Positions 32,002 to 43,575 of a stretch of DNA of 64,000 bases are shown here, one piece after another; position 1 is the stretch's first letter, and every line of letters starts with the position of its first letter. The stretch comes from Zymoseptoria tritici IPO323 (lineage: Eukaryota; Ascomycota; Dothideomycetes; Mycosphaerellales; Mycosphaerellaceae), in contig NC_018214.1 of assembly GCF_000219625.1 (NCBI RefSeq), positions 1,364,001 to 1,428,000 of the forward strand. The letters run 5' to 3'. Both the position numbers and the translations under genes were made by a program. A model generated the notes under the pieces. The model was not told the origin of the DNA and made no database searches. It saw only the letters and a list, made by a program, of their open reading frames with translations.

Positions 32002-32020
32002 TAGTCTCAGACGCTCAGAC
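32002..32020 (+). repeat. Left terminal inverted repeat (19 bp)
   Basis: TAGTCTCAGACGCTCAGAC. The reverse complement of 43557-43575 is TAGTCTCAGACGCACAGAC, so 18 of 19 positions match. Confidence 0.85.
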
Positions 32021-32076
32021 CACCTCGCGTATCAGGCCAATCAGGTGCAAGCACCTGGCCCTACTGTAGGTGGTCT
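32017..32076. repeat. Nested hairpin at left end of the element
   Basis: AGACCACCT (32017-32025) and its reverse complement AGGTGGTCT (32068-32076) enclose a second perfect palindrome, CAGGTGC-AA-GCACCTG (32042-32057). The outer arm overlaps the end of the TIR. Together they could fold into a two-tier cruciform or form paired binding sites for a transposase or helicase. Confidence 0.65.
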
Positions 32077-32448
32077 AAGGGCCTAACTAGTGTTTTTTAG
32101 TAATAGAGTATTAGCTTTATATGTAAATTACACTAACATAGAGTGTTAGTACCTGAACGCGTCTATACGACTAATAGCGACGACAGCATTACCAGGTATA
32201 AAATCTGAAAATCCGGCTTAGTTATCTAATGCAGATTAATGTGCTCTACAACCTCCTGCTATTTGTTTTAACCTAACGCGTTAGACGAACGAAGAGTAGG
32301 CTTTTGCGTATCTTTAGTCTAACCGACGCGTTTGTATAGCGAGACGGCAATGCCTACTCCTCCTTTAGTTTTTGTCTAATACTAACTAAAATTTGTCTAT
32401 TAGATAGCTAGCTGTCCGCTCCCTAACTTAACTAAAGCCGATTTTAGG

Positions 32449-35400
32449 ATGCCGCGCTATAAATCTCGTCTTTCTAGGTTAAATTCCAACCTAACCCGAT
32501 CTTTCGCGACGAGTACTTCGAGCAGCTTTGGCGCTAGCGAGTCCGGACAAGTTAGCAATGCGTTAGATAAGGCGACTAATAAGGAGGATCGATCGGACGA
32601 GTCGTTTTCGCGTGTAGAAATTACTACTTTTGCTAGCGTGCCTAAGCGCATTCGGGTAGTCGACGACAACGACGACGACGATAGTAATAGTCTGTCTAAC
32701 GTCCTAAGTAACTTCGATAATAGTAAGGACCTCTAGGGTAGTCTACAAAAACCTATAGAACTATTAGTATTAGACATCGCCCTTTAGACGATTTTATGTA
32801 GGGGTAGTATAAAAGTGCATTTCATTCGGCGGGAAGGATAGCTAGAGAAGATAGTATTAGTACTAACCGAAGAGATTCCGGTCGAAGAAGACGACGTGTT
32901 AGTTAGGCGGCTGCTAGAGCGGGTATTCTAGTCGGCGTAGAGGAATGCCTATAATATAGACGTAGTCGAAGCCGCTTAGGTCGGGGCCCCTAACGAATGC
33001 TACATACCTTCTATTTCTCTGCCTGCTAATATGCTAGACTAGCTAGTTGTAATAGCGCGCCGCTGCGCGTTCGATAAGGTGTGCTACTAGATTAACTATG
33101 CCGTCGAAACGCCCGTACTTCTAGACGGACAATAAGCTGCAAGTATAGCGGAGTAGGTAGACATAACTAAGCGCGCGGTCCGTTTAATGTATCCGTATTA
33201 TGCCCGAAAGCCACAAGTCCGTATACTGTAGCACCTACTCTTCGAGAAGAAAGACCTAGTCTAGATTGCGGCTACCTCGGCAGGCAAGAGTCTAGCATAT
33301 TAGTTATAGGCGCTAATATAAAAGAAGATGTCGATCTTAGTACTTCTACTTAATTAGATTAGCAAGGAACAGCTTAAGAAGATCGAGTGTCTAAAGGGAA
33401 AACCGTTAGCATTAAACTCGAATACTAAGGCGGAGCTTACCGACTAGTAGTAGAAGCTGCTGTATTCTAGGAAGTGTACCTACCTAATATTGTCTCCTAA
33501 GATAGTAATATAGTTGTAGTTTATAAAACTAATAGTTAAACTAGCGGTAAGGCAAAGGCTCGGCCTCTTTGTATTAGACGAGTTCTACCTGGTTTACTAG
33601 TAGGGGATAGAGGGTAGAGGATTTCGGAAAGAATATACCCGTCTAAAGAATCTTCGGTCTACCCTAACTAATCGTGTTTGCTTCTTTAGTTATTTAGCGA
33701 CTCTCGAGCCGGACACCCTCGTTAAGTGTCGGACGGCCTCCGGCTTTTACGACGACATAGTTGTCGTACGGGATTCGATTAACCGATCTAAGATATCTAT
33801 ATAATATTGCGCTATTCTAGATAGTATACTCGGGAACTATAAGACGCTTCGATATCTAACCGATCGCCTTACTAGAGCTAATAGCGTGCCGAATCCCTAG
33901 TCGATTAAGAAAACAGTAGTGTTTATCGACAGTTGCTTAGGTATCTACACTGCGGCGTCTAGCCTCCGGTCCTACCTACATGCCTAATTCTCTAGAAGCC
34001 TAACGATTAACCAGATCTATGCTATAGTAAGAACCTACTATAGCAGGACGGCTAGGCGAACGCAGGCGAATGTAATTAAGGAGTTCTAGAAACCAGACTC
34101 GAAGATCCGGATCCTATTTGCGACTAAGGCTCTTAGTCTAGGCGTCGACCTGCCTAACATTAAACGGGTCGTTTAATACCGCCTTCCGCAGAACGCTAGC
34201 ATACGGACTATTATGCAGCGAGCCGGGCGCGCTATACGTAACAGCAAGCGGTAGGGCACTAGAACTTTTACCTTCCTTTACGACTAATAGATCGTAGGCC
34301 CCTAGTCGCTAGCCCGACTAAACTAGACTCGTGTAGTCCCGGACAGATTCTTAAACTCGGAGTAGGAGAAAGAGGCTAGTAATCTCGCCGATGCGCTATC
34401 TAACGCTAGATTAGATGCTAACAAGCCGGCGCCTGTCGGACTGCCGTCGGCGGCACGTAAGAAGCCGAGGGCGAAACTAGGTCCTTAGCAGAAGCGCGAC
34501 AATATAAACTATTCTGTGTAGGAGTTTGTGAACGCTAGACGTAATGCAGATAGTCCGGTCGACTGTCGTCGCGTTGCTACTTTAAAGCCCTTCGTAGAGC
34601 TACTGCCTAAAGGGCGTATCCGCAAGAACTACTACGATATCTACGACTAGGATATAATATTACCTACCGACCGCTTTTCCGAATAGATTCCGTCTTCGGC
34701 GGACCTAGATGCCGCCTATACTAGACGCCCGTATAAGAAGACGATCCGCGAGGGTCTAAACAAATAGGAGCCTAGCGTAGCTAAATTGTATTATAAAAAG
34801 GCACTGTTCCCTAGTGTGCCTAGTTCTCTTCTGCCTTAGACGGTAATCGCGTATCTTACTTCTACATTCGGCTCGCCTAGTACGAAGGGAGACGTAACAG
34901 CTCGCTAGGTCGAGCTAGCCTGTTCTGCTGTAGACTTCCGACTATCTCCTAAGCTTGTAACTATACTAGTTTCGAAGCTGTCGGTATTGCTTAAGCTAGC
35001 GTAATTAGTCGAGGCCTAGGAATTGTAGGAGAGTTAGGAACGCGTCGGGGCGTATTGTGTTCGTACGCAGAAGCGCTATCTAAGTCTCGAACTCTCTATA
35101 AGTCTTAAGCGATCTCCTAGGTCCGCTTCGGATAATATAAGGGCTGCTAGTAAGCTAGACTATAAGCTTGCCGCTTAGTCCGTCTATAGTCCTTACGCTA
35201 GTCCGGTACGAGAGCCTAGCCCTCTAGTTAGTAAGCCGCCTACGCCTGTCCCTAAAAGGCTAAAGGTTATGTAGGCGCAATCTAGTAGAGCCGTCCTCCC
35301 TCCTAATCGCGCGCCTAGCTCTTCTGTCTGCCGTCCTACCCCGCCGCCTAGAGCGTATTCCGGAGTTTCTACTAGCTATCGAAAGGCTACGCCTAAAGTA

Positions 35401-42522: not shown

Positions 42523-43206
42523 ATGTGCTAGCAATACGAAGAGACCGTCGAGCGCAATCCTCGCAAAGGAACTCTCTAGAGAGTGCGCTAGCGCGTCCGA
42601 CGCTAGATAGAGGTACTACTATCGAGCACCTTCCTAGACTATAAGTACAACAACATATACGAGATAGCAGCTCCTCGCCCTAGGGGAACATACGGCAGCC
42701 GCGTAGGCGTCGGCGACAGGCGCAGCGCCGTGCTAGAAGACGTCCGCAACCGAAACCCGCTATCCTACTATACTACTATAGCGTAGCTAGTACGCGAGAC
42801 TACGAGCAGATACCTCGCGCCTAGGATTCTGTACTACGAACCGAAGCCTACATATACTAGGAACATTTAGAAGAAGGTAGATACTATTTAGCTAGGCAGC
42901 TTAGTATCGTAGAGGCCGGAGTACAGCGGAAATGCGCTAGACGGTAATAGAGTTAGGTATAGAGAGAGACGAGAGCTAAGCGTTAGACGTTAGTTAGTTG
43001 CTGTACTACCGGCGGCTACTAGGCGTCGAGACCTAACCCCGAGTACTAATATAAACGTCGCTTTAACCTCTTTAGGTCGCGGGTCTAGTATAGCTGCCCG
43101 CGCTTAGCAGGAGGTAGAGGATAGAGCGGTTAGATAGCAGAAGAGGGAAGCCCTAATAGCACGCATAAACGTACAGGCTTAGTCGAGTACCCTACGGTAT
43201 AACTAA
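42523..43206 (+). pseudogene. Element ORF5: basic protein of unknown function, RIP-inactivated
   Basis: ATG at 42523 and TAA at 43206 lie in one register (228 codons including the stop) with about a dozen internal TAG. It is rich in Arg, Tyr and Val, with a readable stretch (LDYKYNNIYEIAAPRPRGTY) and an Arg/Glu-rich second half. The MC start followed by short polar sequence resembles many small Pezizomycotina proteins, but no domain is recognised. Confidence 0.45.
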
Positions 43207-43556
43207 GTATAAGTTATATAACAGCTACCTTCGCCGGATAGGTACAGACGACTAGTAGCGCAAAGGCGGGTAAAGGTAGTGTTACATAAAGGGAGGATAT
43301 AATACGTCTAGAGGTCTAAGAGCGGCTAGAGATTCCCTTTTAGGCGACTAAGGTACGGCTATTGCGATCAGGCGTAAACAAATTATATTAGATTAATTCT
43401 ACAAGTTATACGAATCGTTTGCGGGTATTAGACAGGCATTTAGACTAATATACAAGTTTTCAGATTTTAGCTAACCCTCTATCACCTAGTTCGGCTATTG
43501 CGCTCTTAGACTATACAGGAAGGCGCCCCCGAAGGGGATTAGCGCCGCCAAGTATA

Positions 43557-43575
43557 GTCTGTGCGTCTGAGACTA
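43557..43575 (-). repeat. Right terminal inverted repeat (19 bp)
   Basis: GTCTGTGCGTCTGAGACTA, the inverted partner of 32002-32020 with one mismatch. Base composition returns to that of host DNA immediately to the right. Confidence 0.85.

Follow-up and report, generated by a model that had tools for sequence, protein, structure and literature searches.

AcademH transposons bear a Cys8 zinc finger; their founding description is the paper by Kojima from 2020 (Mob DNA 11:15). The available passages of the literature give their target duplications as 9 or 10 bp (PMC10045372) and place them at low copy number in Ascomycota, Basidiomycota and Mucoromycota (PMC10799480), and fungal Academ copies are described, in the excerpt at hand, as carrying a DEAD/DEAH helicase (PF00270) with recQ_fam (CDD:129701), often annotated as host genes (PMC6416283). 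Here we analysed a stretch of 64,000 nucleotides from Zymoseptoria tritici IPO323 (contig NC_018214.1, positions 1,364,001 to 1,428,000 of the forward strand; the window), in which an 11.6-kb element at 32002–43575 carries a broken helicase gene and a broken DUF6589 gene. With good confidence we read it as a DNA transposon family (family 1, 11 copies), likely of the cut-and-paste type, whose predicted DDE transposase, the DUF6589 protein, is likely helped by a RecQ-type helicase, and which most likely belongs to the AcademH lineage. The analysis provides a concrete anatomy (ends, duplications, gene order, two families and derivatives down to 123 bp) for a little-studied group of helicase-bearing transposons, and DUF6589, which Pfam lists as a family of unknown function, gains a predicted function.

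Ends, target-site duplications and copies of the element

The complete element is bounded by 19-bp terminal inverted repeats (TIRs; left, 32002–32020, plus strand; right, 43557–43575, minus strand), which differ at one position and were identified by end comparison and an end-motif scan. Read directly beside these ends were the two copies of the 9-bp target-site duplication GTTGCTCCG (31993–32001 and 43576–43584, no strand assigned). The genome searched, from which all copy and family counts were obtained, comprised 39,686,251 bp in 21 contigs. Used as DNA queries, the first 1.5 kb and the last 1.6 kb of the element retrieved an identical set of 11 copies, the other ten being 92–95% identical to the window copy over the matched pieces. 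The end motif (up to two mismatches) occurred at 91 sites, compared with 0 for a backwards control, and a scripted pairing of these sites returned both ends of the 11 family-1 copies among them. A perfect 9-bp duplication was read at 11 of 11 copies and had a different sequence at each. Given the 91 sites against none in the control and the 11 duplications, the terminal match is not due to chance, and the shared ends, duplications and copy number together establish that the element is real and its coordinates exact. The original prediction, made from the letters of this DNA alone, had called a complete multi-gene DNA transposon with inverted repeats and a 9-bp duplication; the search for further copies with the same ends and interior, which it had set as its refuting test, turned up ten more, and the claim stands.

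Seven copies measured 11.57–11.65 kb, and four (14.1–20.3 kb) held extra internal sequence in a pattern as after nested insertions. The abrupt change in composition that had been noted at the boundaries was borne out by both GC content (41–49% within the element, 49–60% outside) and the TA/AT ratio (1.98 inside vs 0.52 and 0.49 outside). The pairing of ends covered the family-1 end type and that of a second family described below, with partners within 40 kb; under it, 25 of the 91 motif sites had no partner (e.g. C1:3708472, C8:479246 and C18:125263), and these may be one-ended remnants or belong to further families.

Gene content

All Pfam matches in a six-frame scan fell in a single plus-strand frame, that of position 32002, and the other five frames of the window element gave no Pfam match at E ≤ 0.1. 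The first gene (32449–35685, plus strand, ATG at 32449, 3′ limit uncertain) is broken, with 55 in-frame stops in its frame over 32386–35685, and encodes a superfamily 2 (SF2) helicase that is, judged by its sequence, of RecQ type, as originally proposed. The Pfam domains DEAD (~33208–33705) and Helicase_C (~34018–34242), both on the plus strand, were over their cut-offs, the best NCBIfam match was recQ_fam (E 6.8e-22, far under that family's cut-off), and the closest solved structures were RecQ and RECQ5. A search with the helicase protein at E ≤ 1e-10 returned a single weak match (P0019, 22% identity), which is uninformative for placement.

The next gene on the plus strand (35686–39300, 67 in-frame stops, 5′ limit uncertain) is a broken gene with a Pfam match to DUF6589, and its product is likely a DDE transposase, as predicted from an RNase H-like fold in structure models and a D-D-E site. 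Two DUF6589 models aligned best with Hermes, then with the P element, Tn5 and RAG1; a family absent from these neighbour lists is not thereby excluded. Foldseek alone gave no significant match for the DUF6589 model, and P0001 matched no PDB sequence up to E 10. The predicted acidic triad (codons at 36661, 37912 and 38749, plus strand) is conserved; all three residues are intact in the window copy, and among the seven length-intact copies the first D is lost in one and the E in four. A protein search with DUF6589 found one match, which in turn, as query, found 17 more. The tandem repeats that the original prediction had reported in this DUF6589-like protein correspond to a 42-bp minisatellite (37420–37613, 4.6 units), which lies between the first two acidic residues of the triad, in a linker predicted to be disordered, and differs in unit number between copies. 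In the literature searched, the name DUF6589 was not found and PF20231 matched only an unrelated optics paper.

A third broken gene (39751–41337, plus strand, 5′ limit uncertain) matched DUF3716 below the Pfam cut-off. Six cysteine positions are common to it and its two family-2 relatives, one of which matched DUF3716 weakly and the second not at all; these positions appear as Cys or Tyr, because repeat-induced point mutation (RIP) converts TGY into TAY. Its sequence suggests a DUF3716-like identity more weakly than those of the helicase and DUF6589 are suggested by theirs. Farther right, a putative coding stretch (42508–43203, plus strand) is free of TAA and TGA in the same frame as the genes and matched no protein family. 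Of the "at least five" same-strand frames proposed originally, the helicase and DUF6589 are thus clear and the DUF3716-like gene follows less firmly, through its family-2 relatives, whereas no homology was found for the stretch at 42508–43203. Between the six-cysteine gene and this stretch lies a 15-bp tandem repeat (window 41989–42073), at which copy C8b has 61 additional bases. Outside the element, ~410 bp downstream of its end, a chitin synthase reading frame (Chitin_synth_2, CHS4) has its first ATG (window 43575–43986).

Mutational state of the copies

Among the seven length-intact copies, transitions accounted for 13,633 of 13,845 pairwise differences (98.5%), which together with the raised TA/AT ratio indicates RIP. 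In-frame stops per copy numbered 51–63 in the helicase, 66–90 in DUF6589 and 21–31 in the third gene, the value of 90 belonging to copy C17, in which a 20-bp insert causes a frameshift and so raises the count. Since all three supported genes carry stops, these copies could now be moved, at most, by proteins that an intact relative, should there be one, supplies in trans. At 181 codon sites all seven copies had either a stop or Gln/Trp; 98 of these sites were stops in 7/7 copies and 2 in none, a degree of sharing compatible with near-saturated RIP and equally with shared history, so that RIP may have preceded or followed the spread of the copies. The ends of the element were mutated less than its interior: the share of TA in TA+CA+TG was 0.24 and 0.52 in the first and last 50 bp, respectively, 0.48 at 51–100 and 0.60–0.80 in the bins between. 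A RIP edge effect fits this pattern as well as selection to keep the ends working does.

Relatives in the genome

The second family (family 2, ~13.7 kb) was represented by 22 paired end sets, 16 of them of 13.4–15.3 kb, three of 26–36 kb and three short. Thirteen insertions (10 of the 16 at 13.4–15.3 kb and the three short ones) were examined for duplications; 12 had a perfect 9-bp duplication and one matched at 8/9 positions. Gene content was taken from one fully read copy (C20:418317–432031; L052 118 to L053 6831), which has the gene order of family 1: a helicase at 38.5% identity, DUF6589 in three blocks (33, 47 and 66% identity) and two six-cysteine genes. The short derivatives of 123 bp (L043:124–246), 421 bp (L042:126–546) and 1371 bp (C14:614306–615676, L050), each with a perfect 9-bp duplication, may have moved as such or shrunk in place. 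The smallest retains ~69 bp from the left and ~57 bp from the right end, and in both of its outer hairpin stems one arm is missing.

In total, the genome contained 41 DUF6589 matches, of which 13 belonged to family 1, 19 to family 2 and nine to neither, and 43 helicase matches (11, 22 and 10, respectively), by our sorting of the two match lists. One of the ten outside helicase matches is host-like and without stops (C11:292021); the other nine lie at eight places, show 26–33% identity and form a third group. At seven of these places a DUF6589 match was found 4–14 kb away, convergent with the helicase (helicase/DUF6589 at C1:164388/171883, span C1:164388–173073; C2:1261035/1246812, span C2:1246812–1262141; C3:1565820/1572767, span C3:1565820–1573501; C3:1856354/1847403, span C3:1847403–1857454; C5:2308277/2315273, span C5:2308277–2316532; C7:696832/708859, span C7:696832–709878; and C18:121971/115874). 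The helicase at the eighth place (C14:214621) had no DUF6589 match on its contig, and two of the nine outside DUF6589 matches (C3:1594739 and C18:474716) had no helicase match within the 4–14 kb range. C18:115874 is the only full-length DUF6589 match in the genome that is free of stops (gene L068:3785–6901, C18:114284–117400, domain frame without stops); its partner helicase (L069:1–999) lies on the other strand ~5 kb away, with one stop in the matched piece. This pair, not visibly hit by RIP, may be an active element or a tamed gene.

Subterminal hairpins and a possible mechanism

Next to the inverted repeats, the DNA can fold into a left hairpin (32017–32076, plus strand) with a 9-bp outer stem plus inner stems and a right hairpin (43507–43561, plus strand). 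Single-strand folding gave z values of −4.0 for the right end of the window copy (0/200 shuffles as good) and −1.8 for the left (11/200), and of −5.0 for the left and −1.7 for the right end (13/200) of a family-2 copy. Alignments of both families contained 22 right ends (13 distinct) and 26 left ends (21 distinct). In the right stem, 100% of the cells were paired, and families 1 and 2 differed in both bases of 4/10 pairs; in the left stems, 97.4% were paired, two pairs showed such double changes and one outer pair was broken in 8/21. Sliding the partner cut stem pairing to 20–62%, and the covariation scores of the stems were matched by 0/500 shuffles; the count of double changes, taken alone, was matched by 261 and 268 of 500. 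As only two families were compared, these paired changes represent a handful of events. The left alignment was made without L043 and L044 and the right one without L043 and L050, rows in which an outer arm is missing or diverged; if these short or diverged copies, the 123-bp derivative among them, moved as they are, they suggest that complete outer stems are not strictly needed.

We propose that the transposase would pair both ends, cut them and join them to the target strands with a 9-bp stagger, that the helicase would open either the ends or the insertion gap, and that the six-cysteine protein may bind DNA or protein.

Placement of the element

Duplications of 9 bp at 11/11 family-1 and 12/13 family-2 insertions correspond to those of AcademH, as does an SF2 helicase with DEAD and Helicase_C over cut-off and recQ_fam as best match, albeit below its cut-off; a DDD/E transposase is present by prediction only, from the conserved D-D-E and the nearest fold. 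Because 9-bp duplications and a DEAD/recQ_fam helicase are already published, in the passages cited above, for AcademH and fungal Academ, the element is most likely AcademH and not the undescribed element class that the original prediction had envisaged. We file it by description as most likely an AcademH member, a placement by features rather than by comparison of transposase sequences. The spelling "Academ-H" was not found in the literature searched, and the available Academ/AcademH passages of the Zymoseptoria literature do not name this element.

It is rather unlikely that DUF6589 transposases, an obligatory RecQ-type helicase and covarying subterminal hairpins define a distinct superfamily, with the helicase opening cruciform ends for the transposase and with members that have been filed as Helitrons in this species. 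We regard as quite unlikely, too, the plainer version, in which a DUF6589 transposase, a RecQ helicase and hairpin ends make up a separate superfamily that resembles AcademH only in duplication length and helicase. Such a superfamily would agree with the lack of a Pfam function for DUF6589 and of its name in the literature searched, with the different orientation of helicase and DUF6589 in the third group, and with the outcome of the search for a Cys8 finger: no eight-Cys cluster was found in the helicase and transposase of the mutated element, in which RIP turns Cys into Tyr and six conserved Cys lie in a separate gene. However, a helicase, 9–10 bp duplications and an occurrence in Ascomycota are published for AcademH in the passages mentioned, and the helicase family named there for fungal Academ is the one found here.

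Starships are marked by a tyrosine recombinase (DUF3435) at one end, and no Starship-type tyrosine recombinase was matched in six frames of the mutated element; a Starship reading was likewise set aside. Mutator-like elements frequently make 9-bp duplications, as seen here, and Kolobok elements duplicate TTAA, whereas the duplications of this element are 9 bp long and varied; moreover, neither MULE nor any other named transposase family matched in six frames of the mutated element at E ≤ 0.1. A KolobokH or Mutator-like element with an acquired helicase is thus very improbable, even though KolobokH is a fungal DNA transposon, known only from fungi, with a RecQ helicase, which in the available part of its description lies downstream of the transposase (PMC9587614) and not upstream as here.

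That the helicase is captured host cargo without a role in transposition (the original prediction spoke of "helicase cargo") is just as improbable. RecQ-like genes are common among host genes, one match is host-like and without stops, and the third-group helicase C14:214621 stands without DUF6589 on its contig, but helicase and DUF6589 occur together in the 11 family-1 copies, in family 2 and at 7/8 third-group helicase places. Since they stay together in two full families and, reoriented, in a third group, the helicase looks like a component of the transposon module rather than cargo, its pairing with DUF6589 being largely conserved.

Helicase-bearing repeats filed as Helitrons

The available passages of PMC4522978 define Helitrons as elements without inverted repeats and without duplication, and file 390,961 bp of Z. 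tritici repeats as three helitron families; "helicase domain-containing repeats" are called helitrons there, a 5′ TA, a 3′ hairpin and CTRR being cited, and two of the three families have a 5′ TA and a 3′ hairpin before CTRR. The same passages state that no TIR or duplication was found for the DNA transposon families. DHH is among the longest copies, in a range ending at 13,907 bp, in the part of PMC9970103 available. Elements of families 1 and 2 likewise have TA at the start and, close to the 3′ end, a hairpin, but that they are Helitrons is the least credible reading of all, as it is contradicted by the precise inverted repeats and 9-bp duplications (the ends had led the original prediction to the same view). 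A six-frame scan of the mutated window element gave no match to Helitron_like_N (Rep/HUH), and the 12 matches to this domain in the genome, 11 of them over cut-off, lie outside paired family-1/2 copies. The best of these 12 is C8:2093461–2094027, most have many stops, and true Helitrons thus coexist with the two families.

Families 1 and 2 total roughly 350 kb (estimated as 11 × 11.6 kb + 16 × 13.7 kb), and we infer that some published helitron families may be family-1/2 elements; because genes of true Helitrons are also present, the published figure may be a mixture. The available text of the paper on the curated Z. tritici library of transposable elements (PMC10652580) contains no element sequences. 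Part of the reported "Helitron" content may therefore be made up of helicase-bearing TIR elements, whose insertion and effects would then be read differently.

Comparison with known systems

Styx of Zymoseptoria is likewise a large multi-gene TIR transposon and comes from the same genus; it was rejected as an identity for the element, which has 19-bp inverted repeats and 9-bp duplications, whereas the available part of its description gives Styx a 36-bp inverted repeat, 6-bp duplications, an IS3EU-type transposase and four reading frames (PMC10853768). The nearest structural neighbours of the DUF6589 models are the transposases of hAT elements (Hermes) and of the P element, with which they share an RNase H-like core and a helical insert before the catalytic E; the identity of 7–12% in the structural alignments and the extra genes set them apart. 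AcademH, known to us from descriptions, was set beside the element by features other than the six-cysteine gene, the minisatellite linker and the subterminal hairpins. The element differs from it in being without a visible Cys8 finger and resembles it in its DEAD/RecQ-type helicase, predicted DDE transposase, 9-bp duplications, inverted repeats and occurrence in Ascomycota.
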